A stretch of 64,000 bases of DNA from Isoetes taiwanensis (taxonomy: Eukaryota; Streptophyta; Lycopodiopsida; Isoetales; Isoetaceae): contig JAJEKV010000020.1 of the NCBI GenBank assembly GCA_021234155.1, positions 8,354,563 to 8,418,562 on the forward strand, in the 5' to 3' direction. The notes under the pieces are model-generated. The model saw only the letters and a program-made list of their open reading frames with translations. It was not told the DNA's origin and did no database searches. The first letter of the stretch is position 1; each line of letters opens with the position of its first letter. Below are positions 2,620 to 62,289 of the stretch, one piece after another. A program made the translations under genes and the position numbers.

Positions 2620-3226
2620 AAAGAAGAAGAAGCTAATATGGATTGTGAAGGTTATAGGAAAACTTTGCCTTCCCGGTTTTGCTCCACAACAACCAACCGT
2701 CCCAGAAGCCGGCACAAGCTTGTAGCTATTGCATCAATTCGCACGGGGTCCCACAGGCTACGGATTGAGACAGGTAGATGGGAGCGGCCGCAATTGCCGC
2801 GAGAAGCGAGACTATGTGCCTGTTGCCAGTTACAGGTTATTGAAGATGAAAGCCATACTCTTCTGAGTTGCCCTGCTTTTGAGATAGTCCGGAATCATTT
2901 TTCGACCCTAGCATTCCATTCCACGCTTCCACAACTTCTCAGCGCACCATCTGTGCATGACTTGGCATTATACATACTTGAGGTTCTAGATAAACGTCTG
3001 CAATTACTGAGCCCTCAGTAGTCATTATCTAAGCTTTTTCCCTTGAAAACCTTTCGAGGCAGGCGTTTTTTAATCCTAGTAGTAATGATTGTACTAGCTT
3101 ATTGTATGGGTCCCATGACCTATTGGTCTCCGTGGACGTTAAAAAAATTCTATTCTATTCTATTCTATTCTATTCTATTCTATTCTATTCTATTCTATTC
3201 TATTCTATTCTATTCTATTCTATTCT
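2620..3226 (+). mobile_element. 5'-truncated LINE, C-terminal end plus (TATTC)n tail
   Basis: An open stretch at 2,638-3,021 encodes the end of a LINE ORF2. It has the family block IASIRTGSHRLRIETGRW, seen again near 4,600 (-) and 63,150 (+), then a zinc-binding-like CACC...EDESHTLLSCPAF motif. The 3' UTR holds an inverted pair around GAAAACCTTTCGAGGCAGGCGTTTTTT (as segments), then the common LINE end CTCCGTGGACGTTAAAA (3,128-3,144), followed by a pure (TATTC)n tract at 3,148-3,226. The 5' breakpoint is not clear. Only the last ~0.6 kb is present, the usual product of aborted target-primed reverse transcription. Confidence 0.8.
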
Positions 3227-6195: not shown

Positions 6196-6699
6196 ATGGA
6201 GCATGCTGGGCACATGCTACCTGATTTGCCAGGTTACCAACATTTCTCGGTCTTCAATACCTGTACAGGACAGCGGGGTCATGGTGGAGTGGCTTGCTAC
6301 TACCGGACAACCTTGGCACATTCGGTTACCCTCCAGAAGACAGACAGACACAACCGGTACTTCTGGGTTCGTGTGCATAATACCAGTGGCAACCCTCTTT
6401 TTCTGGCCGCCTGTTATTTCCCTCACGCAGACAGCACCTTCTATCGCAGCCACCCCAATGCGGATAGGATGGACCCGTATGTCGATCTATATGATGACAT
6501 ACAGCAGCATCAGCAGTTGGGTAGGGTCGTCCTTCTTGGAGATTTCAATGCACGGACAGGAGTAGAGCAGCCCATGCGACTTGACCCCCTCGGCGATGTC
6601 CTGCGGCTTCGCCCGCCAAGTAGCCCGCCCGCGGGTCGGATGACGGCCGGTCACTTCGCTTTGGCGAACGTTGCTCTGCTATGTGGCATTTTGACTTGA
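6196..6699 (+). pseudogene. LINE endonuclease (EEP) domain fragment
   Basis: The 167-residue open stretch is the middle of an exonuclease-endonuclease-phosphatase domain of a LINE ORF2. Visible motifs are GHGGVACYYR, FLAACYFPH and LLGDFNARTG; the D and N of GDFN are catalytic in the family. The N-terminal catalytic N and E residues are not seen, so the domain is 5'-truncated. The first ATG is just the first in frame, not an evidenced start. In active LINEs this domain nicks the target DNA to prime reverse transcription. Confidence 0.85.
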
Positions 6700-20757: not shown

Positions 20758-20898
20758 CTCCATTTTGATAAAAAGGCAGCATCTCGGCTACGCCGTAGAT
20801 TTTCATAATCTATCTATGCATTAGCCATAGCCAATTTCCCACCATTTAGCTTTTGGGTTTCTGTAATTTTGCTTTAGATCTCCGCCCAGGCTCTAAGA

Positions 20899-22407
20899 AT
20901 GTCGACGGACATATTTTGCAGCTCTTCGGAGCTTAGTGCCGTAAATGTGACCACAGCGGGAGCTCTGTTGTGCACGAAACTGAGTCTGATTTCAGACAAA
21001 TTAGGCGCAACAACTCTGGCTGTGGATAACACATACTTACTCTTTTCAGCCTATTTGGTTTTTGCCATGCAGCTTGGGTTCGCCATGCTCTGCGCCGGAT
21101 CTGTCAGAGCCAAGAACACCATGAATATTATGCTCACAAATGTGATTGACGCAGCTTGCGGGGGTCTTTCGTACTATCTTTTTGGGTTCGCCTTTGCTTT
21201 TGGTACTGGAAGCAGCACGAATGGATTCATAGGCAGGTATTTTTTTGCCCTATCAAAGATACCTGACGCCACAGCCGGGTTCGACTACAGTTTCTTTATG
21301 TACCAATGGGCATTCGCCATAGCCACGGCTGGGATAACGAGCGGATCCATAGCGGAAAGGACCCAATTCACGGCGTATTTGATCTATTCATCGGTTCTGA
21401 CAGGGTTTGTGTATCCGATAGTATCACATTGGATGTGGTCGTCAGATGGGTGGGCATCTGCAGGGAATGTGAAAAATTTACTGTTTGGATCTGGGGCGAT
21501 AGATTTTGCAGGAAGTGGAGTGGTGCATCTGGTGGGAGGGGTTGCAGGATTTTGGGCAGCGTTTATAGAAGGGCCAAGGATTGGAAGGTTCGACAAAGGA
21601 GGGACGTCTTTTATTATGAGAGGACACAGTGCATCTCTGGTCGTTCTCGGATCTTTTCTGCTGTGGTTTGGCTGGTATGGTTTCAACCCTGGTTCTTTTC
21701 TCAAAATTAACGTCCCATATGGGGATGGATTTACTGGAAACTGGACTGGAGTGGGCAGAACTGCTGTGACCACAACCCTGGCAGGCTGTGCAGCTGCCAT
21801 GACCACTTTGTTTGGCAAAAGGGCCCTCAGTGGCCACTGGTCTGTCATGGATGTCTGCAATGGCCTCCTTGGTGGCTTTGCAGCCATCACCTCTGGCTGC
21901 TCTGTTGTAGACCCTTGGGCCTCCATCATCTGTGGCTTTGTCTCTGCCTGGGTTCTCATGGGCCTCAACATCCTTGCTGAAAAATTCCACTATGATGACC
22001 CCCTTGAAGCTGCCCAGTTGCATGGTGGCTGTGGTGCCTGGGGCCTCATCTTTACTGGCCTCTTTGCTAAAAGGCAATATGTCCAAGAAGCCTATGGCCA
22101 TAGTTCCCAATATGGCTTGTTCTTGGGTGGTGGTGGTAAGCTCCTTGCTGCCCAAATTGTTGAAATCCTTGCCATCACTGGTTGGGTTTCTGTCACCATG
22201 GGTACCCTCTTCTTCATCTTGCATAAGTTCAACCTTCTCAGAATCAAACCCGAAGACGAAATCGCTGGCATGGATCTCACTCGCCATGGCGGTCTCGCTT
22301 ACTATCATGAAGATGGCTCTCATGGTGCTGGTTCTTATCACTCTGGTAGGCCTCTCAAGTCCAATCCTGAGCATATTGAACCTTCCAGGATTGCTGTTGC
22401 AAACTAG
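20899..22407 (+). CDS. AMT1-type high-affinity ammonium transporter
   Basis: An intact intronless gene of 502 residues, typical AMT1 length. AMT/Mep/Rh proteins are trimeric plasma-membrane channels-transporters that take up ammonium. The full 11-helix core is readable from about residue 45 ([20 protein letters not shown]) to about 445. The pore twin histidines are at about H210 ([10 protein letters not shown]) and H375 (LHGGCGAWG), and the family signature DFAGSGVVH is intact. The cytosolic tail holds GMDLTRHGG with T461, equivalent to the threonine whose phosphorylation shuts plant AMT1 trimers, and a histidine/glycine-rich stretch after it. The start is the first ATG in frame and agrees with the family's extracellular N-terminus. 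A TATA box and poly(A) signal flank it. Codon use is GC-richer than the surrounding DNA. Assignment to AMT1 rather than AMT2 is firm; the paralogue number is not inferable. Confidence 0.97.
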
Positions 22408-41629: not shown

Positions 41630-42887
<1,258 letters not shown>

Positions 42888-43525: not shown

Positions 43526-43958
43526 TTATTTTTTTTGGAAGGATGAAAAGCAAGTTTATTTAGCACAGGTAAATATTACAGGATGTATAAATCTCATCTA
43601 GCTGTGCAAGCATAAGACAACGCTCCCGAAGCATGAGCCTGAAGCATTAATAATGCTTCACTTCCGCATAGGAGACTAATGATAAGAATTAATTTGGAAA
43701 TACTGAATCCAAATACAGTCTCTCACTTCTTCCCTGAGGGAGGAAGAGTAGTAAGCCATCAGTAGCTTAGCTTGGGCTACAACGATGACTCTACAAACAG
43801 GTGAATAAATGCCTTAGAAAATGTGCAGCCTACGACGCTCCCAGATTGACCACAGTAACCAATCAGACCCAAGATGAAATGTATTCTGTTTATCTGGGGC
43901 CCATACACCTGGGTGGGATGCTAGGAGAACAAATTGGCAATCCAATGTACTGTTAAAT
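43526..43958 (-). pseudogene. LINE zf-RVT relic, 3' half, split by the CACTA-like insertion
   Basis: The minus strand reads SHPGVWAPDKQNTFHLGSDW then LLWSIWERRRLHIF (43,925-43,820) and RVIVVAQAKLLMAYYSSSLR, a typical region after the RT zinc-binding domain of plant LINEs. It ends in an A-rich stretch near 43,526 (minus strand AATAAA, then an A-run). Its upstream half lies at 55,287-55,870, on the other side of the 11.3-kb insertion. Confidence 0.65.
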
Positions 43959-44430
43959 CACAACAAGCGAATGGTCATTTAGCGACGTGGGCTTGCGACG
44001 TTCCTGCGACGTGACGTCGCAATTGACGTGACCATGCGACGTCAATGCGGCGTCCACGTCGCAGAACGCCGCTATCTGGCGGTACTGCGACGTCGACACT
44101 CGTGACTGGCGGTCCGCCACGCCAGGTGGATGTCGGTGCCAAGTGGATGACAGTTGCCACATTTGCGACGTCACGTCACATGCGACGTCGCGGCACTTGG
44201 TCTATCTGTCACGCCAGGTGGACTAGGGCGCCGGGTGGACGACAGGTGTCACGCCAGGTGGATGTCTGCGACGTGACGTCGCATGCGACTTGACGTGACA
44301 TTGCAGAACGGATGACACGTCAGTACGTATTTGACACGTGTACTGCCAAGTCGTAGGTGACCTGGAAGGTGACCGTTGATAATCGCCGCGTCGCGGCGAT
44401 ATCTGACGACGTCAAAACTCATTTCTTAGT
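43959..44430. repeat. Left subterminal GCGACGT repeats of the CACTA-like element
   Basis: GCGACGT or ACGTCGC occurs more than ten times, in both orientations. CACGCCAGGTGGA recurs three times (about 44,118, 44,211 and 44,252). A one-mismatch copy of the right-end palindrome lies at 44,276-44,291. Such sites are the transposase-binding type in CACTA elements. Confidence 0.85.
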
Positions 44431-44436
44431 TGGGTG

Positions 44437-47400
44437 AACATGTGCGGTCTTCTGGCCACGGAACTTGCTCCCCAGGGCAATGTCGACGTCTTGAGTCCAT
44501 TGGCAGAGACGAATCGCGGTTCCGGGGACGGGAGATCGCCCGTCCGTCCCCAGGGCCTTGAAGAGAGGAAATTCGGGCAAGCGGCTTAAAGGATTTTAGG
44601 GTCTCCGGCTCGCCAACACCCCCACTCCACGTCAAGACACGACGCAAGGTCCCGGCCGAATCTGATAAGGAGAGGGCCTCCGAAACGTAAACCCTGTGGG
44701 TTGCCAGGTTCTAGAAGGGTTTGCATTTTGGGGGTTGAGACTTGGTCTGTTGCGCTTGGGACCGGCCGAAGCCGCAAAATGAGAATATGGAGCAAGGGGA
44801 ACCGACGGAGCGGAGTTTGGGCCTGGCCCTCCTCCGATGTGGCAAGTAGAAGTCGGGGGCGCTTTAAAGGGCAAGACATTCATAAATTCGTAATTAATGC
44901 ATTGTACAAAAATAAATTCTGATTTTTTTGCCATTTGGATTTCTAATTCATCTCCAAAGACACGGCCCAATTTTTCGAATTTTTCGGAGAAGGTCTAGGT
45001 CAAAGGGTTAGCTAAAGTCAAAGGAATGGAGTTTGTGGGATCGTTGTACTTGGGGTTGACCTTGACCTGGTGGACGTTGTACTTGGTCTAAGATTGCATT
45101 GAGAATATAAGCAACATAACTATTAGAATGAAGATCATCATAACTACTAGAATGAAGATAAATGATTACGTAAAAAAAAAAAGACTACTACTTGGCGGGG
45201 GTTAGATTTGGTTGCTTGTGATGATGGTTGTGTTTCAAAGATCAAGGCATATGGATAGAGAGAATGCCCATGTTCAAATCTGATTGCTCCCTAAAGCTAT
45301 TTGACATGGATGGCATAATTAACTTGTAATGAATCAAATTCGGGGCAAATGGGGATTTTAGGGTCCCCGCTCAAGGCCAACACCCCCACTCCACTCAAGA
45401 TACGGCAAAGGTCCCGCCAAATCGACAAGAAGAGGGGCTCCTCCAACGTAAACCCCCCTGAGTTGCCGTGTTCTAGAAGGGTTTTCGTTTTGGGGGCCGA
45501 AGTTTTGGTCTTCGGCCACGTAACTTGGTCCCTAGGGCAATATCGACGTTTTGAGTCCATTGGCGAGCCAAATCGCGATTCCGGAGAGGGAGGTCGCATG
45601 TCCGTCCCCAGGGCCTTAGGGAGAGGAAATTCGGGGCAGGCAGCTTCCGGGGGGATTTTAGGGTCCGTGCTCAAGGTCAATACCCCCACTCCACATCAAG
45701 TCACGGCACAAGGTCCCGCCAACCGACAAGGAGAGGGCCTCCAAACGTAAACCCCCGGGGTTGCCGTGTTCTAGAAGGGTTTGCGCTTTGGGGGCCGAGA
45801 CTTGGTCTGTTGCAACTTGGGACTGGCCGAAAGATGCGACCAAGAACCGGAGCAAGGAACCGACAGAGGCGGAGTTTGGGCCTGTCCTCCTCCCGTCGCG
45901 GCAATTAGAAGTCGGGGGCTTTTTTTGCAATGGCAAGACATTCATAAATTCGTAATTAATGCATTGTGCGAAAATAAATTCTGATTTTTTGCCGGTTTGG
46001 ATTCCTAATTCATCTCCGAAGATCTGACCCAATTTTCGAAATTTTCGGAAGGTCTAGGTCAAAGGGTTAGCATTAGAACGGTCGGGGCAGCCCGTTGCAG
46101 GGCAACCGAGCTAGCACCTTTCCCCAAGTCAAACAAGGCCCGGGACCTTGCGGGGATCCCTCACAAGAGGGAGAGTCCCACCCCAAGAGGCGGGATCCAA
46201 AAAAGTTCCCGAGGCAGCCCTTCCTGGCAGCGCTCCCCCGGGGGGCTGCATGCTAATGACCACCCTCCCGGAGCCCGGTTCCCCTATCCGACCATTGGAT
46301 CCTCCGTTCAGGGGCCCCTCTTCGGGAAGGCCCAAAAGATTCCAGATCGGTCCGGGAGAACTTGTCAAACCGCAGGGCGTCCTGAGGTCGGCCTTGTATA
46401 AACCGCAGTGTTTTGTCGTTCGGGCACCGGGGAGGCTCCGGAATAGCAAATCGACCCTACCAAATCGTCCGAAATGGCGAAATTACCCTAAGGAGCAAGT
46501 TACAAGGTCGGTTTTGCAAAAGAAAGAAACACTCACGCCCTCCACGACAGTATCCCGCATCCACATCCTGGGCCAATTGACTACGAGTGTGATGGAAGTG
46601 AGCTACTTTGGCGCTTCTTGGAGGTCGGGTGGTCTTCTGGCCACGGAACTTGGTTCCCAGGGCAATGTCGACGTTCTGAGTCCATTGGCAGAGCCAAATC
46701 GCGATTCCGGAGAGGGGAGGTCGCCCGTCCGTCCCCAGGGCCTTGGGGAGAGGAAATTCGGGGCAAGCAGCTTCCTGGGGGATTTTAGGGTCCGTGCTCT
46801 GGCGTCAACACCCCCACTCCACGTCAAGTCACGGCGCAAGGTCCCTACTAATCGACAAGGAGAGGGCCTCCGAAACGTAAACCCTGTGGGTTGCCAGGTT
46901 CTAGAAGGGTTTGCGTTTTGGGGGCCGAGACTTGGTCTATTGCACTTGGGACCTGGCCGAGAAGCTGCAGCCGAGAATACGGAGCAAGGGGAACAGAGGG
47001 AGCGCGGTTTGGGCTTGTCCTCCTCCCGATGTGGCAAGTAGAAGTCGGGGGGCGCTTTTGCAGTGGCAAGACATTCATAAATTCGCAATTAATGCATTGT
47101 ACGAAAATAAATTCTAATTTTTTGCCAGCTGGATTCCTAATTCATCTCCAGCACACAGCCCAATTTTCGAAATTTTTGGAGAAGGTCTAGGTCAAAGGGT
47201 TAGCATTAGAATGGTCGGGGCAGCCCGTTGCAGGGCAACCGAGCTGGCACCCTTCCCCAAGTCAAACAAGGCCAGGACCTTGCAGGGATCCCTCACAAGA
47301 GGGGAGAGTCCGGACCCCAAGAGGCGGGATCCAAAAAAGTTCCCGAGGCAGCACCCTTCCCCGGCGGGGCCGGGGCCGCTAATGACCACCCTCCCGAGCC

Positions 47401-50400
47401 GGTTCCCCTATCCGGCCGTTGGATCCTCCGCTCGGGGGCCCCTCTTCGGGAAGGCCCAAAAGATTCCAGATCGGTCCGGAGAACTTGTCAAACCGCAGGG
47501 CGCCCCGAGGTCGGCCTTGTATAAAACCGCAGATGTTTTGTCGTTCGAGCACCGGAGAGGCTCGGAATGGCAAATCGACCACCTTAAATCGTCCGGAATG
47601 GCGAAATTACCCTAGGGAGCAAGTTACAAGGTCGGTTTTGCAAAAGAAAGAAACACTCACGCCCTCCACGACAGTATCCCACATCTACATCCTAGGCCAA
47701 TTGACTACGAGTGTGATGGAAGTGAGCTACTTTGGCGCTTCTTGGAGGTCAGGTGGTCTTCTGGCCACGGAACTTGGTCCCCAAGGCAATGTCGATGTTC
47801 TGAGTCCATTGGCAGAGCCAAATCGCGATTCCGGAAAGGGGAGATCGCCCGTCCGTCCCCAGGGCCTTGGGGAGAGGAAATTGCAACAGCGGCTTCCGGG
47901 ATTTTAGGGTCCGTGCTCAAGGCCAACACCCCACTCCATGTCAAGTCACGGCGCAAGGTCCCGGCCGAATCTGAAGAGGAGAGGGCCCGTAAAACGTAAA
48001 CCCTGTGGGTTGCCAGGTTCTAGAAGGGTTTGTGTTTTGAGGGCCGAGACTTGGTCTGTTGCACTTGGGACCTGGCCGAGTGGTTGCAGCCGGGAATACG
48101 GAGCAAGGGGAACTGACGGAGCGGAGTTTGGGCCTGTCCTCCTCCCGATGTGGCAAGTAGAAGTCGGTGGGCGCTTTTGCAGCGGCAAGACATTCATAAA
48201 TTCGCAATTAATGCATTGTACGAAAATAAATTCTGATTTTTTGCCAGCTGGATTCCTAATTCATCTCTAGCACACAGCCCAATTTTCGAAATTTTCGGAG
48301 AAGGTCTAGGTCAAAGGGTTAGCATTAGAACGCTCGGGACAGCCCGTTGCAGGGCAACCGAGCTGGCACCCTCCCCCAAGTCAAACGAGGCCAGGACCTT
48401 GCAGGGATCCCTCACAAGAGGGGAGAGTCTGGACCCCAGGAGGCGGGATCCAAAAAAGTTCCCGAGGCAGCAGCCCTTCTGGCGGGCGCTCCCGGGGGCT
48501 GCACGCTAACGACCACCCTCCCAGATCCCGGTTCCCCGATCCGACCGTTGGATCCTCCGTTCAGGGCCCCTCTTCGGGGAAAGGCCCAAAAGATTCCAGA
48601 TCGGTCCGGAGAACTTGTCAAACCGCGAGGCGCCCCGAGGTCTTGACCTTGTATAAACCCTTGAGTGTTTTGTCGTTTGGGCACCGGGGAGGCTCCGGAA
48701 TGGCAAATCGACCCTGCCAAATCGTCCGGAATGGCGAAATTACCCTAGGGAGCAAGTTACAAGGTCGGTTTTGCAAAAGAAAGAAACACTCACGCCCTCC
48801 ACGACAGTATCCCGCATCCACATCCTGGGCCAATTGACTACGAGTGTGATGGAAGTGAGCTACTTTGGCGCTTCTTGGAGGTCGGGTGGTCTTCTGGCCA
48901 CGGAACTTGGTTCCCAGGGCAATGTCGACGTTCTGAGTCCATTGGCAGAGCCAAATCACGATTCCGGAGAGGGGAGGTCGCCTCCGGCCCCCTGTGGGGC
49001 CTTGGGGAGAGGAAATTCGAGGCAAAGCAGCTTCCTGGGGATTTTAGGGTCCGTGCTCAAGGCCAACACCCCCACTCCACGCCAAGTCACGGGCGCAAGG
49101 TCCCTACCGAATCGGACAAGGAGAGGGCCTCCAAACGTAAACCCCGTGGGTTGCCGTGTTCTAGAAGGGTTTTGGCGCTTTGGGGGCGAGACTTGGTCTA
49201 TTGCACTTGGGACCGGGCCGGTCGAAGCCGCAAATGAAATACGAGCAAGGGGAACAGAGGGAGCGGTTTGGGTTGTCCTCCTCCCGATGTGGCAAGTAGA
49301 AGTCGGGGCTTTGGCAAAGGGCAAGACATTCATAAATTCGCAATTAATGCATTGTACGAAAATAAATTCTAATTTTTTGCCAGCTGGATTCCTAATTCAT
49401 CTCCAGCACACAGCCCAATTTTTGAAATTTTTGGAGAAGGTCTAGGTCAAAGGGTTAGCATTAGAATGGTCGGGGCAGCCCGTTGCGGGGCAACCGAGCT
49501 GGCACCCTTCCCCAAGTCAAACGAGGCCAGGACCTTGCAGGGATCCCTCACAAGAGGGGAGAGTCCGGACCCCAAGAGGCGGGATCCAAAAAAGTTCCCG
49601 AGGCAGCCCTTCCTGGCAGCGCTCCCCCGGGGGGCCGCACGCTAATGACCACCCTCCCGGAGCCCGGTTCCCCTATCCGACCGTTGGATCCTCCGTTCAG
49701 GGGCCCCTCTTCGGGAAGGCCCAAAAGATTCCAGATCGGTCCGAGAGAACTTGTCAAACCGCGGGGCGTCCTGAGGTCGGCCTTGTATAAACCGCAGTGT
49801 TTTGTCGTTCGCACCGGGAGGCTCGGAATGGCAAATCGACCACGCCAAATCGTCCTAATGGCGAAATTACCCTAGGGGAGCAAGTTACAAGGTCGGTTTT
49901 GCAAAAGAAAAAAACTCCACCCTCCACGACAGTATCCCACATCTACATCCTAGGCCAATTGACTACGAGTGTGATGGAAGTGAGCTACTTTGGCGCTTCT
50001 TGGAGGTCAGGTGGTCTTCTGGCCACGGAACTTGGTCCCCAAGGCAATGTCGACGTTCTGAGTCCATTGAGCCAAATCGCGATTCCGGAAAGGGGAGATC
50101 GCCCGTCCGTCCCCAGGGCCTTGGGGAGAGGAAATTCGGGGCAAGCAGCTTCCGGGGGGATTTTAGGGTCCGTGCTCTGGCGTCAACACCCCCACTCCAT
50201 GTCAAGTCACGGCGCAAGGTCCCGGCCGAATCTGAAGAGGAGAGGGCCCGTAAAACGTAAACCCTGTGGGTTGCCAGGTTCTAGAAGGGTTTGTGTTTTG
50301 AGGGCCGAGACTTAGTCTGTTGCACTTGGGACTGGCCCGAGTGGTTCAGCCGAATACGGAGCAAGGGGGCCCGGCGGAGGCGGAGTTTGGGCCTGTCCTC

Positions 50401-51830
50401 CTCCCGATGTGGCAAGTAGAAGTCGGTGGGGCGCTTTTGCGGCCACAAGACATTCATAAATTAGCAATTAATGCATTGTACGAAAATAAATTCTGATTTT
50501 TTGCCACTGGATTCCTAATTCATCTCTAGCACACAGCCCAATTTTGAAATTTTAGGAGAAGGTCTAGGTCAAAGGGTTAGCATTAGAGCGCTTCGGGGCA
50601 GCCCGTTGCGGCAACAACCGGTGGCACCCTCCCCAAGTCAAGCGAGGCCGGGACCTTGCGGGGGATCCCTCACAAGAGGGAGAGTCCGGGACCCCGGAGG
50701 CGGGATCCAAAAAGTTCGAGGCAGCCCCTCTGGCAGCGGCCCCCCGGGGCTGCCTAATGACCACCCTCCCGGGCCGGTTCCCCTATCCGACCGTTGGATC
50801 CTCCGTTCGGGGGCCCCTCTTGGGAAGGCCCAAAAGATTCCAGTCGGTCCAGGAGAACTTGTCAAACCGCCGAGGAAATCCCGGTCGGCCTTGTATAAAC
50901 CCTTGCAGTGTTTTGTCGTTTGGGCACCGGGAGGCTCCGGAATGGCAAATCGACCACCGCCAAATCGTCCTAATGGCGAAAATTACCCTAGGGAGCAAGT
51001 TACAAGGTCGGTTTTGCAAAAGAAAGAAACACTCACGCCCTCCACGACAGTATCCCGCATCCACATCCTGGGCCAATTGACTACGAGTGTGATGGAAGTG
51101 AGCTACTTTGGCGCTTCTTGGAGGTCGGGTGGTCTTCTGGCCACGGAACTTGGTTCCCAGGGCAATGTCGATGTTCTGAGTCCATTCGCAGAGCCAAATT
51201 GCGATTCCGGAGAGGGGAGGTCGCCCGTCCATCCCCAGGGCCTTGGGGAGAGGAAATTCGGGGCAAGCAGCTTCCGGGGGGATTTTAGGGTCCGTGCTCT
51301 GGCGTCAACACCCCCACTCCACGTCAAGTCACGGCGCAAGGTCCCGGCCGAATCTGACAAGGAGAGGGCCTCCAAAACGTAAACCCTGTGGGTTGCCAGG
51401 TTCTAGAAGGGTTTGCGTTTTGAGGGCCGAGACTTGGTCTGTTGCACTTGGGACCTGGCCGAGTGGCTGCAGCCGAGAAAACGGAGTAAGGGGAACTGAC
51501 GGAGCGGAGTTTGGGCCTGTCCTCCTCCCGATGTGGCAAGTAGAAGTCGGGGGGCGCTTTTGCAGTGGCAAGACATTCATAAATTCGCAATTAATGCATT
51601 GTAGGAAAATAAATTCTGATTTTTTGCCAGCTGGATTCCTAAATCATCTCCAGCGCACAACCCAATTTTCGAAATTTTTGGAGAAGGTCTAGATCAAAGG
51701 GTTAGCATTAGAACGGTCGGGGCAGCCCGTTGCAGGGCAACCGAGCTGGCACCCTCCCCCAAGTCAAACGAGGCCATCCTCTGTTTAGGGGCCCCTCTTC
51801 GGGAAGGCCTCAGGACTGTCTTAAGCCTAG
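44437..51830 (+). repeat. Satellite-like tandem array, period about 1,125 bp
   Basis: The anchor GATGGAAGTGAGCTACTTTG lies at 46,591, 47,715, 48,848, 49,973 and 51,091, so successive periods are 1,124, 1,133, 1,125 and 1,118 bp. Partial and rearranged units extend from 44,437 to 46,080, and the last unit is cut near 51,830. Each unit is GC-rich with one AT-rich patch (ATTCATAAATTCGCAATTAA, ATGCATTGTACGAAAATAAA). Open frames occur in several phases but are shifted from unit to unit by small indels, so they are not coding. The unit family is unknown to me. Confidence 0.9.
45020..45345. other. Unique spacer inside the tandem array
   Basis: About 325 bp of AT-rich text unlike the array unit, containing a short repeat (AACTA-TAGAATGAAGAT, twice near 45,119 and 45,141). 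It separates the first partial unit from the rest. Confidence 0.6.
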
Positions 51831-52139
51831 GGACAAACTTTAATGAGCATCACATTTAAAAAAGACGTCAAAAAAAAAAAATATAAAGTCCATAATGTCG
51901 CTATAACAAAATACGTCGCGTGGACATCGCATGCGACGTCACGTGCGACGTTCTGTAATTTTTTGAAACTGCGCGCGGCCGGCTTTCCCGCACCTTTTCT
52001 TTTCGCTTCCTCTTCGAGCTTTTTTGGGCGTCTGGCGGCTACTACTACCTGATCGACACGCAAGCAACTATTCTAAAGGTTAGTACATCATATTTTTTAG
52101 ATTGAATAGGTTTTTTGGATTGAAAGGTGCATGCCTAAC

Positions 52140-53060
52140 CTAGGTTTTTTGTGTTCTTCATTTTTCTTCTTCTCTCATTCTTCTCTTCTATTCTTTCCCC
52201 TTCCTTTCTTCTTCCCTTCTCTTCTTTCCTTCTCTTCTTCTCTCTTCTTCTTCTCTTCTTCTCTTCTTCTCTCATTTCTCTTCATATTTCTCTTCTTTTC
52301 TTCTCTTCTTTCCTTCTCTTCTTTCTTCTTCTCTTCTTCTCTCATTTCTTCTCTTCTTCTCTCATTTCTCTTCATATTTCTCTTCTTTCCTTCTCTTCTT
52401 CTTCTCTCTTCTTCTTCTTCTTCTCTTCTTCTCTTCTTCTCTCATTTCTTCTCATTTCTTCTCTTCTTCTCTCATTTCTCTTCATATTTCGTTTTCTTCC
52501 CTTCTTCCCTTCTCTTATTTCTTCCCTTCTTCCTCCTTCTATTCTTTCTCTTCCCCTTCGATTCTATTCTTCTCTTCTCTTATTCTATTCTTCTCGATTC
52601 TATTCTTCTCTTCTCTTATTCTATTCTATTCTTCTCTTCTCTGTCTCTTATTCTCTTATTCTCTTCTCTTATTCGATTCTATTCTTCTCTTCTCTTCGAT
52701 TCTATTCTTCCTTTCTCTTCTTCCCTTCTTCGATTCTTTCTTCTTCTCTTATTTTTTTATCTCTTCTTTCCTTCTCTTATTTTTCTCTTCATATTTCTTT
52801 TCCTTCCCTTCTTCCCTTCTTTCTCCTTTTATTCTTTCTCTTCCCCTTCGATTCTATTCTTCTCTTCCCCCCCCCCCACATCATTTCTTCTTCTCTCTCC
52901 TTAGTGCTTTCCCTTCCCATCTTGACCCTTCCCTTATTTCTTCTCCCCCCCCCCCCCTCTCTTGTTTCTCCCACCCTTATCTTCTTCTTTGATTATTTTT
53001 TTTTCTTTTCTTGATTTTCCATTTTTTCCACTTTAATTTTTTTATTTTTTTCGATCTTCT
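52140..53060 (+). repeat. Pyrimidine-only tract (TTCTC-rich), about 0.9 kb
   Basis: Almost exclusively C and T on the plus strand for about 900 bp, built from TTCTCTTC, TTCTATTC and CATTTCTCTTCATATTTC units, with C-runs at 52,867-52,877 and 52,946-52,957. It lies between a donor-like GGTTAGTA (52,079) and an acceptor-like TTGTTGCAG (53,090-53,098), so it may be an expanded intron. Confidence 0.9.
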
Positions 53061-53225
53061 TCTTCTTCTGTTCTTATTCTTTTAACTTTTTGTTGCAGGT
53101 TTGGCAGCTGTCCTTTTTTATTTGGGCCCGGCAGGATCTTGTCTGCACACGTTCTTCATTTGGTAAGTTCATCACACTTGCATTTTTTTTATAGCTTTAA
53201 ATAGGTTAAAAAAAAATTGGCCGAA

Positions 53226-53733
53226 GTGGCTTGTTCAAGGGCACGGGTCGGCTCCACCTAGAGTGGAGAGGACCATGTGTACTCGGGTTCGAAGTCCACT
53301 TCCACTATGATCAAATTTTATTTTCCTAGGTTAAGGAGTGGCTTGTTCAAGGGCACGGTCGGCTCCACCTAGAGTGGAGAGGATCACTTACCCGGGTTCA
53401 AGTCGACTTCGACTTGTTATTTGTTAGGTCTAAAATAAAATTGTAGTGGCTTGTTCAAGGGCACGGTCGGCTCCACCTTGCGTGGAGAGGACCAGATGTC
53501 CGGGTCCAAGTCCACTTTTCTTCTCATTCTTAGGTAGAGGTGGCTATGGCAAGGACATGGTCGGCTCCACCGCGAGTGGAGAGGACCAGGTGTTCGGGCC
53601 TTAGTTCACGTTCATTATCAGTTTTAGCTAGAGGTAGCTAGGGCAAGGACATGGTCAGCTCCACCATGAGTGGAGGGGACCAGATGTTCGGGCCCTAGTC
53701 CCACATTTCTTATTATTTTTGTTAGGTAGAGGT
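53226..53733 (+). repeat. Five degenerating ~94-112-bp tandem units with tRNA-like features
   Basis: Units start near 53,226, 53,338, 53,446, 53,540 and 53,634. Each has GTGGCT..G.CAAGG.CA.GG, the hairpin CTCCAC-N5-GTGGAG and a GGGTTCGAAGTCCA-like B-box word, best kept in unit 1. In unit 1 the outer GAAGTGG and CCACTTC pair like an acceptor stem. A proper anticodon loop (T33) is lacking, so these are not tRNA genes; they could be tRNA-derived SINE monomers. Confidence 0.6.
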
Positions 53734-53882
53734 ATTATTATTTTCTTATTATTATTTTATTTAAAAAATAAAATGAATAGAGTTTCCCTTCGATGATGGG
53801 CGAGCTTCTACGAAAAAGGAGGTACATGACCTAATCATAGTCTTGTTTTTATTATTTTAATATTGCGTTGATCTATCGATTT

Positions 53883-54597
53883 ATGTCAAAGGCAAAGAGT
53901 GGTCAAGGAACCCAAGGCGACTTACTTGCGAAAAAAGTTGGAGGCGATTGGTCAAAAGTCCCTAAACCACTTAATCTCCACAAGGAAGATATCAAGGTAT
54001 TTCTTATTTTTTTTGCCATTCGTTCACTTTAACTTGTGATAATGTTGTGTGCCTTGCAATCAGATTGCATTCGAACGTGCAAAGGATCCAGAACAGAAAC
54101 ATAGAGCTCGGGACCGAAACAAAGCAACTAAAAGTGAACGAAAAGCCGCCTCATTTGGGCTCCAGTGATTCGGAAAGGGGTTTCACCATAGATTCGTAAG
54201 AGCTATATTAGTTCACATTAATTTTAATAAGAACTTTAAATGTCATTAGCTAATACTGCGTTATATTGTCATAGACCTATCTATATACGGGTTTCCCCTA
54301 ACAAGCAAAGACGTAAAAATAGCCACGGAACGTGGAGTTTGTTTATCTGTATCAAGCTATTATCTGAGAGGGGAACCGTCCCCACATCACGGAATGCGGG
54401 GGTGCGTTGTAGAAAATTATTATAATTCTATGAACTACATTAATGCCATATTCTTTTGGTTTTATAGGAAGCATGTATGAGATGAATCAAGCCCTAGACG
54501 AGGACATGGGGCGCGGGTGGCTCGAGGGATCTGCAAACTATGGTGGAGGGCCATCCAATCGCAACCCCGAATCGGATGACTACTCCACTGGAATCGG
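53883..54597 (+). pseudogene. Small spliced gene remnant inside the CACTA-like element
   Basis: An exon 53,883-53,996 (MSKAKSGQGTQGDLLAKKVG, GDWSKVPKPLNLHKEDIK) ends at a GTATTT donor. After a TTGCAATCAG acceptor the next exon (from 54,064) continues in phase: AFERAKDPEQKHRARDRNKA, TKSERKAASFGLQ, then a stop at 54,166. A third exon-like piece after TTTTATAG (54,471) reads YEMNQALDEDMGRGWLEG to a stop at 54,605. The basic RNKAT..ER segment is reminiscent of the second protein of plant En/Spm elements, but the match is weak. It could also be a captured gene. Confidence 0.4.
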
Positions 54598-54643
54598 CAG
54601 AGATTAGCTCTAGGCTAAAAGGGTGGATACTCCCCTTAACGAG

Positions 54644-54795
54644 TCTTTTGTGATTATTTAAAAATATAAATACAATTCACTTTTGTGATTATTTAAAAAT
54701 ATAAATATAAAAATACTTTTGTGATTATTTAAAAATATAAATATAAAAATACTTTTGTGATTATTTAAAAATATAAATATAAAAATATAAATGCC
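54644..54795 (+). repeat. 36-bp tandem repeat, four copies
   Basis: CTTTTGTGATTATTTAAAAA followed by TATAAATATAAAAATA repeats with period about 36 bp, nearly identical between copies. It lies between the gene remnant and the right subterminal region. Confidence 0.9.
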
Positions 54796-54874
54796 CTTTT
54801 ACTCCTTGTACATCATATTGTAATAATTATCTAAGCCAAACATTTTTTTATTTTTTTTTTTATTTTTTTCTTGC

Positions 54875-55286
54875 ACGTCGCATGCGACGTATCCACGTGG
54901 CTTTTTTATTGCCACGTGGCTTTTCTAATTACACGTGGATTTTCATAATTTTTCTGCGTGACGTCGCATGCGACGTAAACACGTGGCTTTTACGGCACAC
55001 GTGGATTTTTTTGATATTCCACGTGTATATTCCACGTGTCACGTCGCATGCGACGTATACACGTGGCTTTTACAACACACGTGGATTTTTTTGATATTCG
55101 CCGTATATATTCCACGTGTCACGTCGCATGCGACGTCTGTGTCACGTCTGTGTCACGTCTGCCGACGTCGCATGCGACGTGTCTCCAGCGACGTCTGTGT
55201 CACGTCTGTGTCACGTCGTCAGACGTCGCATAGACGTGACCTAGACGTCGCTATAGACGTCGCTAAATGGCCTTTCTCCTGTTGTG
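54875..55286. repeat. Right subterminal palindromes of the CACTA-like element
   Basis: The 16-bp perfect palindrome ACGTCGCATGCGACGT occurs at 54,875, 54,961, 55,041, 55,121 and 55,165, interleaved with CACGTGGCTTTT and TCTGTGTCACG words. Spacing of the first four is about 80 bp. The segment ends with the right terminal inverted repeat. Confidence 0.95.
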
Positions 55287-55870
55287 AATAATGCTTGAAA
55301 CTAGGACCATGCTGGCTGAACTTCTGGACAAGAAAAGAGACAATGCTCAAGTGTTTCGACATCTAAAAGGAAAAGCAGACATATTGCAACGTTGAGAGGA
55401 TCATAGTTGCGAGGATCATAGTGACACCTATGTAAGACTTGCCACCAAAGTACAGAAACTTTAGGATGGAGCAACTTATCCCAAAGTCAGCACCATGTGC
55501 GGGCCCGCATGGATTCTAGGATCTGTAATTGCCATCCATTTGGTAATGGGAGGGGACATGGAGCTAAGAGCAGATGGTATATAGAGCGGACAAAGTATTT
55601 TCCTTTGTGAATCTCCTCGTGACAACCCCATGGCACCCGTTCCGTGACACCGACTTCAACTATGAGGGGCAAGTTCTATTCTATTCTATTCTGCCACTTC
55701 TCTTATACATTTATTTATAGTCCATCAAGGGACAACTCTACAACTGTTTTCCTCATTGGCCCGAGTTTTTCCCTTAATACATGGTGGGACAATCCTGCCT
55801 CTGCAACGATCCAAACCCAACATTTTCAACATCTGAGTATCCCAGAAGCTTCCCGGCATCTAGAAGGATG
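55287..55870 (-). pseudogene. LINE RT C-terminal/zf-RVT relic, 5' half
   Basis: The minus strand reads EEIHKGKYFVRSIYHLL (about 55,600-55,550), WDKLLHPKVSVLWWQVLHRC (about 55,485-55,425) and NVAICLLFL, the typical order of the zinc-binding region following plant LINE RTs. The remaining part continues at 43,958 downwards after the 11.3-kb insertion is removed. A short (TATTC)4 lies at 55,674-55,693. Confidence 0.65.
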
Positions 55871-59657: not shown

Positions 59658-61634
59658 TTAGAAATTGGCATCGCTTTCTTTCATCTCCTGGAAGAGCTTG
59701 GATGCACTATTTAATCTATTTGATTTCTCATATATGTGTATCATAGTAATATAGAGATCCTTCAATGTGATCCCTTCTTGCGTCTTTAACTTGTCAAAAA
59801 GTTCCTCGGCAGCTTTTATTTGACCACCACTACCATAAACTTTGAGCATCTCCCAGTGAGCTGCTTCCTTTAAAATGCAACCATTATCCTGCATTTCATT
59901 ATAAAAATTTTCGGCTTCTCTAAATAAGTGAAGCTGACCATATGCTGTTAAGAGAGCTGTTGCAGTTTCTGTATCAGGAAAAAGTCCTCTCGACTTCATT
60001 TTCTCAAAAACATCAATAATGTTTTTATATTTTTTGTTCCTTCCAAAGAGCAAAATCATCTCTTTATACACAGAACCATCTTTTATTTCTTCTGCTTCTT
60101 CGGCCCTCCAGAACAACCTTGCAGCTTCCTCAAGCTTGCCAGCCTTGGCAAGAATATTAAGGGCAATATCTTTTGGGAGAGTGCCTGTGTTCTTTAACTC
60201 CTGAAGCAAACGTCTTGCATGCGCTATAAGTCCAGCTTTTTCATACACAATAATCATAGACTGGTACAATATCTCATCCATTGGGAATCCTTTAGCACGC
60301 AGTTCTGCAAACAAAAAGGCAGCCTTGTCATATTTTCCAACCTTACCATAAATGCTTATAAGTGTAGAATATGTCACAGCATTCGGTTGTATGCCCCTTT
60401 CCTGCATCTGATGCACAAGCCTTGTTGCTTTCTCATGTTGCCTAACTAAGCCATGAAGATTGATAACTGTGTTATATGTAATAACATTTGGCTCAATTCC
60501 TTTGTTCTGCATATAGTAAAACAGATTAAAAGCTTCCGAGAGCAATTCTGCCTCTCCATAGACTTTAATCATTGTGTTGAAAGTTACAACATTAGGTGGA
60601 AGGTACATATCTTTCATGCTCCAAAAGATGTTCTCTGCTTCCTTCGTCATCTGCAGCTTACCATAGATGTCTATCATCATATTACATGTTGTAAGATCCA
60701 GAGCCAGTCCTTTGGCCTTCATGTCAAAGAAAGCTTGTTTAGCTTCCTTGTATTTTTCTGACTCGGCATATGCATTTATTAGAATGCTGTAAGTTACAGT
60801 ATCAGGATCAATACCTGCAATGCCCATCTCTGATAAAAGAGCCTCAGCCTCTAGGTATAGTTTAGCCTTGCCGAAAATATTCATCATGGAATTATACACT
60901 ACTTTATCAGGGCACATACCTGTCTGTTTCAATTTGTAGAAAAGCATCATGGCTTTGGAATAGTCTTTCAATTTTCCAGCCAGCTCAATAAGTGTGCTGT
61001 AAACTACCAAATCAGGCTGAACACCCCGTTCTTCCATTTGATGGAACCATGACATAGCATTGTCAAATTTTCCAGCCCTGCCAAAGGCACTAATAAGTGT
61101 AGAATAAGTATACTTGTCTGGTGGCACTCCATTTTCCAGCATTTCATTCACAAGACCCTCTGCCAATTTCCACTGGCGCTCTCTTAAAACATTCCTGAGA
61201 ATAATATTATACCCAAAAATACATGGCCTATACCCTCCTTTATCAATCATCCAATCATGAAGGGCTAAGGACCTCTGCCAATCCTGTTCCTTATTCAATA
61301 TAGACATCATGAGTCTCAAAGAAATTTTACCCTTCCAACTGTTCATAACATTCTCAAGTTCGAATTCATCCATTGTATTCTTTAAAGAACTCAAAATATC
61401 ATCAATATTGATTGAATGATCGTATTGACTACTGCTAGTTTTGCCATTTGATCTGCTTTGAGAGGGTCGCCATATTGTGCTGAGTGATGATCCCGCGCTT
61501 TCCCATTTGGGGCTCTTGTTATCTGAGATGGGAAATTCTGTGCAGGATGCATTGCATCTTACAACTCGGCCGGATTGGCGAGTTGGGTGCTCCAAACATA
61601 AAATACCGGGGTTCGTGGCTGTAGAAGAGAACAT
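59658..61634 (-). CDS. P-class pentatricopeptide repeat protein, chloroplast-type (At5g39980/EMB3140-like)
   Basis: An intact intronless frame of 658 residues. The first ~90 residues lack repeats and are serine/arginine-rich with few acids, like a chloroplast transit peptide. From about residue 100 a region SLRLMMSILNKEQDWQRSLA leads into about 13-14 canonical 35-residue P-type repeats (for example PPDKYTYSTLISAFGRAGKF, PDKVVYNSMMNIFGKAKLYL, PNVVTFNTMIKVYGEAELLS) to the C-terminus. There is no E, DYW or SMR domain. The order and wording (DWQRSLAL, DLTTCNMMIDIYG, IYGKVGKYDKAA) agree best with the Arabidopsis At5g39980 family (PDM3/EMB3140) of similar length. P-class proteins bind organellar RNA for processing or stability. 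The start is the first ATG, placed before the transit-like region. Orthology is from memory of the family, not a search. Confidence 0.9.
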   Translation of the reverse strand: MFSSTATNPGILCLEHPTRQSGRVVRCNASCTEFPISDNKSPKWESAGSSLSTIWRPSQSRSNGKTSSSQYDHSINIDDILSSLKNTMDEFELENVMNSWKGKISLRLMMSILNKEQDWQRSLALHDWMIDKGGYRPCIFGYNIILRNVLRERQWKLAEGLVNEMLENGVPPDKYTYSTLISAFGRAGKFDNAMSWFHQMEERGVQPDLVVYSTLIELAGKLKDYSKAMMLFYKLKQTGMCPDKVVYNSMMNIFGKAKLYLEAEALLSEMGIAGIDPDTVTYSILINAYAESEKYKEAKQAFFDMKAKGLALDLTTCNMMIDIYGKLQMTKEAENIFWSMKDMYLPPNVVTFNTMIKVYGEAELLSEAFNLFYYMQNKGIEPNVITYNTVINLHGLVRQHEKATRLVHQMQERGIQPNAVTYSTLISIYGKVGKYDKAAFLFAELRAKGFPMDEILYQSMIIVYEKAGLIAHARRLLQELKNTGTLPKDIALNILAKAGKLEEAARLFWRAEEAEEIKDGSVYKEMILLFGRNKKYKNIIDVFEKMKSRGLFPDTETATALLTAYGQLHLFREAENFYNEMQDNGCILKEAAHWEMLKVYGSGGQIKAAEELFDKLKTQEGITLKDLYITMIHIYEKSNRLNSASKLFQEMKESDANF

Positions 61635-62289
61635 GGATAAGGAGGGAAGTATGTCTCGCAGCGGACTATGTGTGTAATTTTTTTAATTAAGCAAAATTTC
61701 CTCTAGCTTCCTCTCAAATCCTCAAGTAATGGCCTTCCAAATCCAATCAAATCTTCTTCTAAGCACAACAATGGTGTGGAATCTTGAAAACTTGTAAAGC
61801 GGTAATATTTTTAAAGGTAAAAGAAATGGGCTGCTCCTTCAAGATATAGCATTTTCAATACATTCCTAGGGAGGAAGTGGTAAGCCTTAGGCAGCATTGC
61901 AACAAATTCAAAGGAAGACAATCGAGAAGAGGTTTCTATATTTAACAATTGAATCTTAAAAAACATGTTTGGAAGGGCGGAGGTTTTGTCCTATGTCTTA
62001 TCCTACTATATGTAAGGTTTCACATAAGGTTTCACATAAGTTTTTCTAGCTGTAGAATAGTATTTTAAGAAGATATGAAGCTTGAGACTAGAGAGTTATC
62101 ATAACTAGAGAAAGTTAGAGGGTACAATTTTTTAAGAATATAAATGACTAGTAAACGGGTGTCTGGCAATGTTGGGCGTTCTAGCTATGACAACTGCTGA
62201 TGTTTGCCTTATGATTGTTTGTGTTGGATTTAACACATTTAGACGCTGTGAAATACAAATAAGGCAGCAATAAAGTTGTAATGCTGATG
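61635..62289. other. Upstream region of the PPR gene, no other gene seen
   Basis: AT-rich presumed promoter. A duplicated word AAGGTTTCACATAAG lies at 62,015-62,040. No clear TATA box assigned. Confidence 0.45.

Follow-up and report, generated by a model that had tools for sequence, protein, structure and literature searches.

Introduction

The maize transposon En/Spm has CAC termini with the terminal pentamer CACTA, a 3-bp target duplication, dense subterminal motifs and the genes TnpA and TnpD, and it is not known to contain a long internal array. CAC termini and dense short subterminal repeats are features of CACTA elements (PMC8978399). One of these, the CACTA-like Jozin of Chenopodium quinoa, holds an internal array of a 171-bp satellite (5,550 bp, 32.5 monomers), and the array is also reported from inside elements on three further scaffolds; the proposal of the Chenopodium authors is that CACTA elements spread the array and alter the satellite landscape (PMC8978399). 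The Chenopodium satellite CficCl-61-40 derives from the tnp2 coding sequence of Jozin (PMC7320549), and the non-autonomous Helentrons CgHINE of Crassostrea gigas have central satellite-like repeats (reviewed in PMC9659126). Since both the Chenopodium CACTA arrays and the Helentron central repeats have been published, the general idea that DNA transposons carry satellite arrays is already known. Here we analyse an 11,328-bp element (positions 43959-55286) in a stretch of 64,000 nucleotides, hereafter the window, from the lycopod Isoetes taiwanensis (assembly GCA_021234155.1, contig JAJEKV010000020.1, positions 8,354,563 to 8,418,562 of the forward strand). An earlier note, made from the letters of the window alone, had described it as a CACTA-like element whose cargo is a satellite array. 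We conclude that it is very probably a non-autonomous member of a high-copy CACTA-like family with a built-in array of ~1.12-kb units, flanked by the left subterminal region on one side and by a gene-like region on the other.

Results

The element is bounded by 30-bp terminal inverted repeats (TIRs) that are identical at 26 of 30 positions, and both termini read CACAACA (Table 1). In a control scan that compared 2 kb at one end with 2 kb at the other, the top TIR pair and its one-base shift alone reached 26, and in 60 random pairs of 2-kb regions of the window the best inverted 30-mer scored 20-22 of 30 in 59 cases and 30 of 30 in one. The heptamer GCGACGT, counted on either strand, has 29 of its 30 window occurrences inside the element. 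The left subterminal region holds 11 (Markov mean 0.49, maximum 6) and the right one 13 (Markov mean 0.42, maximum 3), together 24 in 844 bp against Markov means that sum to 0.91. Three further occurrences lie directly right of the array, and a motif count on both strands gave none in 45506-51808 and 52001-54869. Exact ACGTCGCATGCGACGT palindromes number five, all within the right subterminal region. The element sits in a relic of a long interspersed nuclear element (LINE). When the flanks are joined, a 51-codon frame is open across the junction whether one AAT or both are kept; since 3 bp leave the frame unshifted, this is no test of the duplication itself. The joined reading matches zf-RVT at E 1e-5 with 26.5 bits, just below the Pfam cut-off of 27.5. 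The match lies wholly within the right flank and stops before the junction, and the left-flank part resembles, in our own reading, a LINE tail. The description given in the earlier note thus holds for the TIRs with AAT on both sides (their score was reached in only one of the 60 random-pair controls), for the palindromic subterminal repeats and for a LINE relic split by the element, of which the open joined frame and the sub-cut-off zf-RVT match on the right are the signs.

As query for a search of the genome (1,658,258,908 bases in 1110 contigs) we took the element's first 200 bp, which are free of array sequence and had been proposed in the earlier note. At least 40 places aligned along most of this length with 81-100% identity (40 scored of 606 candidates), and 17 short opposite-strand matches fell inside those same 40 places. 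We analysed the 20 best of the 39 copies other than the window's (L009 to L028), and 12 of these, as well as the window's copy, were read through the right array border. Array sequence follows the left subterminal region in all 20 fetched copies, making 21 of 21 with the window, and the left array junction is identical in 19 of the 20. A small deletion has removed the junction in L028; in L009 an insert of 5.1 kb precedes it, and L014 keeps ~130 bp of unit. The left TIR of the window matches the left ends of the fetched copies at 27-29 of 30 positions, and CACAACA is exact in 17 of them (exceptions L019, L025 and L028). Hence the array is not the captured cargo of a single element, a candidate that we rejected because it stands in every fetched copy; it lies at fixed borders across a family. 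Nor is the CACAA terminus peculiar to this copy, as had been supposed, CACAACA being the terminus of the family. The suggestion that the element disperses the array gains support from the shared left junction.

Both ends were available for ten copies, nine of which carry a perfect 3-bp duplication (Table 1). The tenth, L019, shows none as aligned, with the terminus CACAACAACAAG; if the start is moved 3 bp outward, GAT stands on both sides. Because the duplicated triplets differ among copies (AAT, ATA, GTT, GAT, TTT, TCT, TTA, TTC, AGT, AGG), there is no fixed target motif. It might be argued that no transposon exists at all and that a dispersed satellite happens to have flanking repeats, for which the missing transposase speaks and nothing else. 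The duplications refute this idea, with matched but differing triplets found directly in nine of ten copies, and the terminal repeats and the split LINE relic also contradict it; we attach practically no weight to it. As to superfamily, the family shares with CACTA (En/Spm) elements the 3-bp duplication, direct in nine of ten copies and after a 3-bp shift in L019, the short TIRs starting with CAC and the dense short subterminal repeats. Helitrons and Helentrons leave no target duplication, whereas these copies carry 3-bp duplications. PIF/Harbinger elements duplicate TWA, which only TTA among the ten triplets fits. An assignment to PIF/Harbinger or to another 3-bp-duplicating type would be allowed by the duplication length, there being no transposase to decide, but the triplets disagree with it and CAC termini with dense short subterminal repeats are as in CACTA elements (PMC8978399), so that we consider it quite improbable.

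The array (44446-51808) fills 65% of the window's element. Its units are spaced at 1118-1133 bp and five full units are 85.9-91.6% identical pairwise, in agreement with the ~1.125-kb period and ~65% share reported earlier. In 13 copies, the window's included, the span between both array borders ranges from 819 bp to ~7.8 kb. L015 (C1095:2508619-2574322, 65.7 kb) is far longer. Its left part consists of 19 kb of array from the left end and then N stretches (2,874 of 3,000 sampled bases are N). Beyond these follow ~11.6 kb of array again, the usual right border and the gene-like region, which is split by an insert of ~14.2 kb, and then the right terminus at C1095:2508619. The array span is ~47 kb, of which ~31 kb were read as array, ~2.9 kb were read as N and ~13.5 kb are unread. 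Since the AGG triplets on the two flanks match (chance 1/64), L015 would seem to be one element rather than two joined by assembly. Thus the family has head-to-tail arrays of one unit, as in satellite DNA, over 0.8-7.8 kb in 13 copies and over ~31 kb of read sequence in L015.

Do such arrays arrive preformed or grow after insertion? We compared 100 half units, counting a column as CpG-distant if the next CpG was over 4 bases away, and tested neighbour counts by shuffling. At CpG-distant columns the mean difference is 0.143 within elements versus 0.117 between elements, and 14 of the 100 half units have their nearest neighbour within their own element (shuffled mean 10.3, maximum 24). The last units of different elements are alike, the nearest unit being another last unit in 7 of 10 cases (0.073 versus 0.120). 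Because units of the same element are no closer to each other at these columns, growth from one unit after insertion is disfavoured; the pattern fits arrays inherited by transposition. Within the window's array, certain units resemble the next but one (half units 3/5 and 4/6), and of 54 columns that split the units two against three, 24 agree with the pairs U2+U4 or U3+U5. The distances between full units at CpG-distant columns give a mixed picture in this respect, and we take the dimer structure as a hint, one that would fit later local duplication. The best reading of these comparisons is that a pre-formed array is delivered by transposition and then undergoes gains and losses locally.

Where the unit came from is a separate matter. 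It is possible that it is native to the transposon, an internal segment of ~1.12 kb having been duplicated in tandem and later varying in number. The fixed array borders agree with such an origin, as do L024 and L019, in which the borders enclose just 819 bp and 1.4 kb of partial units, as might be the case in an ancestral short state. However, the A halves of these two copies have their closest relative in the last unit of L028, to which contraction fits equally, and the unit has no homology to a known transposon gene; we would put a native origin just short of an even chance. Alternatively, an ordinary CACTA-like element may have taken up an existing genomic satellite, one that is also independent elsewhere, and its descendants carry the captured array. 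The Chenopodium authors prefer capture for the 171-bp array (PMC8978399), and self-comparison of the Isoetes element revealed no similarity of the unit to the subterminal and gene-like regions. In addition, the 10-mer GACGTCAAAA occurs by eye in both flanks, at a distance of ~30 bp from the array on the left and ~55 bp on the right, as template-switch gap repair might leave it, but the subterminal regions have many instances of its GACGTC core. Moreover, with the left border fixed in 19 of 20 copies, capture needs to have happened once, before the family spread. We regard it as a possible origin, on the doubtful side.

Two functional candidates for the unit were rejected. As a known RNA gene it has no support: a tRNA scan found no tRNA for it and Rfam gave no match at gathering scores. 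At E up to 1, Rfam gave eight sub-threshold matches in the element, six of them of microRNA type in the subterminal regions, one to RMST_8 within the array (E 0.76) and one to CrcZ at about 53.7 kb (E 0.074), all taken as chance. As a coding repeat it fails as well, five unit frames being without Pfam match and the 308-amino-acid unit frame without relative at E 1e-3 among 3,285 candidates. Since the protein-relative searches ran without a positive control from I. taiwanensis, missing relatives are weak evidence. A faint string resembling a primer site made a tandem LTR retrotransposon a further candidate for the unit.

The gene-like region right of the array emerged in this follow-up and is not described in the earlier note. 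An exon text of 158 amino acids, merged from several copies in a comparison that left out columns with fewer than three letters, gave in Pfam only Gasdermin_C at E 0.017, far below the cut-off, and no relative among 13 candidates; for a 72-amino-acid exon version no protein candidate shared enough words. The element's gene as a known transposase was therefore rejected, the 158-amino-acid text having no credible domain or relative. In L024 (oriented ~2937-3225) the gene has a longer open exon, without known domain, of which the window keeps only the end, and the window's gene thus looks internally deleted. A six-frame scan for transposase of 43959-46672 and 51809-55286 returned two sub-threshold, unrelated matches (E 0.42 and 0.07), and five reading frames scanned in the rest of the array had no Pfam match, so that for these parts the earlier statement that no transposase is visible remains correct.

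Divergence between copies is concentrated near CpG. In the gene and tail region, copies differ at 7.0% (161/2,304) near CpG versus 3.3% (184/5,498) elsewhere, with gaps of at least 8 columns masked and L025 left out of the gene-region part; the values for 47 full units are 13.6% and 6.4%. C-to-T or G-to-A changes at CpG make up 619 of the 4,179 near-CpG differences in units, most of which are therefore of other kinds, with many transversions and deletions among the near-CpG differences of L010-L028 and the window. A CpG-free tail has its best stretch at 98-100% in seven of seven copies (other stretches of that repeat, 78-96%), the CpG-rich left end is 81-91% identical between copies, and the units of L015 worsen toward the N stretch. 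Consensus errors at methylated sites probably account for some of the divergence and for some of the damage to the reading frame, and the family may therefore be younger than is apparent.

Some copies are irregular. In L018 (with C920:3041705-3044015) a left end is followed by ~3 kb of array in forward orientation; the array then turns round and runs inverted for ~13.5 kb (of which 5 kb are unread) before it ends in sequence without match to the element. L011 has its array and gene-like region repeated within itself. L013 probably lies inside another array, because its left flank is unit sequence. These three copies point to recombination of arrays and to insertions by family members into arrays of their own family. 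The inserts in L009, L012 and L014 look to us, from their reading frames, like retroelement pieces. In L014 there are two left ends 6.2 kb apart (oriented 301 and 6460), each preceded by CATA, which suggests duplication of the locus.

Table 1. Features of the element and its flanks, in window positions, and array spans and target duplications of individual copies.
Feature	Position or copy	Strand	Remark
LINE relic, portion beyond the zf-RVT domain, cut off by the insertion	43679-43958	-	frame continuous with right flank
Target site duplication AAT, left copy	43956-43958	.	read in the sequence
Left TIR, starts CACAACAAGCGAATGG	43959-43988	+	26/30 to right repeat
Left subterminal region with GCGACGT repeats	43989-44445	+	11 motifs
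First half unit (A) of array	44446-45012	+	left border is the fixed junction of the family
Other sequence, 330 bp ('uniq1')	45013-45342	+	recurs in arrays of other copies, nearer the right end there
Unit fragment	45343-45505	+	sequence comparison
Regular tandem array, ~5.6 units, spacing 1118-1133 bp	45506-51776	+	
Last-unit remnant left by deletion, right array border	51777-51808	+	
Post-array segment, small subterminal-motif cluster at 51913-51951	51809-51951	+	12/20 fetched copies have it in place, one further copy inverted
Putative 5' exon 1, splice donor 52079	51952-52078	+	by eye; region 83-93% identical in other copies
Presumed intron, pyrimidine-rich	52151-53090	+	
Putative exon 2	53099-53162	+	splice-like sites by eye; 97-99% in 6/9 copies, 86-90% in 3
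Tandem repeats of 94-108 bp within gene-like region	53225-53701	+	
Putative 3' exons of gene-like region, interrupted in the window's copy	53886-54607	+	no credible Pfam match
Four 36-bp AT-rich tandem repeats	54645-54787	+	
Right subterminal region, five 16-bp palindromes	54870-55256	+	13 motifs
Right TIR	55257-55286	-	26/30 to left repeat
Target site duplication AAT, right copy	55287-55289	.	read in the sequence
LINE relic, zf-RVT portion	55290-55676	-	E 1.8e-5, right-flank piece alone
Array span; 3-bp duplication	window		7,364 bp; AAT
Array span; 3-bp duplication	L010		3,723 bp; ATA
Array span	L011		5,496 bp
Array span	L013		2,421 bp
3-bp duplication	L015		AGG
Array span; 3-bp duplication	L016		5,559 bp; GTT
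Array span	L019		1,418 bp, partial units
Array span; 3-bp duplication	L021		~3.3 kb plus 2.1-kb insert; TTT
Array span	L023		7,792 bp
Array span; 3-bp duplication	L024		819 bp (one A half and part of B); TCT
Array span	L025		4,428 bp
Array span; 3-bp duplication	L026		4,712 bp; TTA
Array span; 3-bp duplication	L027		~7.8 kb plus ~0.8-kb insert; TTC
Array span; 3-bp duplication	L028		~4.4 kb; AGT

Elsewhere in the window, a long open frame on the plus strand (20878-22407) encodes an ammonium transporter (Pfam PF00909, E 7.5e-127) and the minus strand carries a gene for a PPR protein with 12 PPR_2 stretches (59658-61682). An endonuclease/exonuclease domain at ~6196-6696 on the plus strand (PF03372, E 1.9e-6) probably belongs to a decayed LINE, and a (TTA)n microsatellite of 45 units lies at 41912-42047.

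Discussion

The ends of the family, its target duplications, the fixed array borders and the variable array length can be read directly in the copies. For the way in which the family moves and its arrays change, we infer the following sequence of events. A transposase acting in trans, presumably from an autonomous CACTA-type relative, would recognise the CACAACA ends and the GCGACGT repeats. The element would insert with a 3-bp duplication and take its array along. The unit number could then be altered in place, from less than one unit to tens, when units undergo unequal exchange or replication slips between them.

Several observations weigh against a CACTA-type family that delivers its arrays ready made. 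The terminal pentamer is CACAA and not CACTA, both at the two window ends and in the family, and Transposase_21 (tnp2) was not found in the scanned parts of the window's element, although a missing tnp2 gene is compatible with a non-autonomous CACTA member, which need not have the gene. In the features tested the family behaves as a CACTA element does, and because of the pentamer and the lack of a visible transposase we call it CACTA-like; the earlier CACTA assignment agrees with the 3-bp duplications, CAC ends and subterminal repeats and falls short at the pentamer and tnp2. When all columns are used, 29 of 100 half units have their nearest neighbour within their own element (shuffled maximum 21), and at near-CpG columns 28 of 100 do (shuffled maximum 22), which may reflect local homogenisation or duplication within elements. 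First units are only weakly position-specific (9 of 21; 0.098 versus 0.116). Of two findings that the earlier note had named as speaking against it, copies without 3-bp duplications were not seen among those read, but an array without the proposed termini was in part encountered, as the array of L018 runs on inverted and lacks a right terminus. For eight of the 20 copies the stretch fetched first stops short of the right array border, and of these only L015 was completed later. The length of L015 is a statement of the assembly, a span with N runs and ~13.5 kb unread. Finally, statements on the family cover the window's copy and the 20 best-scoring of the 39 others.

It has long been asked how satellites come to occupy many unlinked places. 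The present family provides bordered arrays of one unit at many loci, ranging from less than one unit to a span of ~47 kb. Since complete arrays are bracketed by a duplication that records the insertion, they permit a direct test of whether an array was delivered at its length or grew after arrival. It is appealing to propose, tentatively and with slightly less than even confidence, that this is a satellite-seeding family. A kilobase-unit array would be a permanent part of the transposon. It would reach at least dozens of sites, perhaps hundreds, already formed and could grow in place to tens of kilobases within one intact-ended element, so that all stages from a single unit to a satellite block would coexist in one genome. 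Relative to the parts of PMC8978399, PMC7320549 and PMC9659126 that we draw on, the kilobase unit, the fixed place in 21 copies, the range of lengths and the giant copy are new.

With En/Spm the Isoetes element has in common CAC termini, a 3-bp duplication and dense subterminal motifs; it departs from it in the pentamer CACAA and the long internal array. CgHINE elements, like the Isoetes family, are DNA transposons that propagate tandem repeats as a built-in part, but they are rolling-circle elements without target duplication, whereas the Isoetes family has ends of the cut-and-paste type and 3-bp duplications (PMC9659126). CficCl-61-40 is, like the Isoetes array, a satellite linked to a CACTA transposon; its monomers come from transposase sequence, whereas the Isoetes unit has no match to a known domain (PMC7320549). 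The closest resemblance in build is to Jozin, likewise a CACTA-type element with an internal satellite array (PMC8978399). Jozin elements have a transposase domain, and none was seen in the scanned parts of the Isoetes element. The Jozin monomer measures 171 bp and its array lies near the 3' end, whereas the Isoetes unit measures ~1.12 kb and its array adjoins the left end (PMC8978399). Compared with what is described for Jozin in the portions of that article used here, the Isoetes family stands out in having array sequence at this left position in 21 of 21 examined copies, over lengths from 0.8 kb to a span of ~47 kb.

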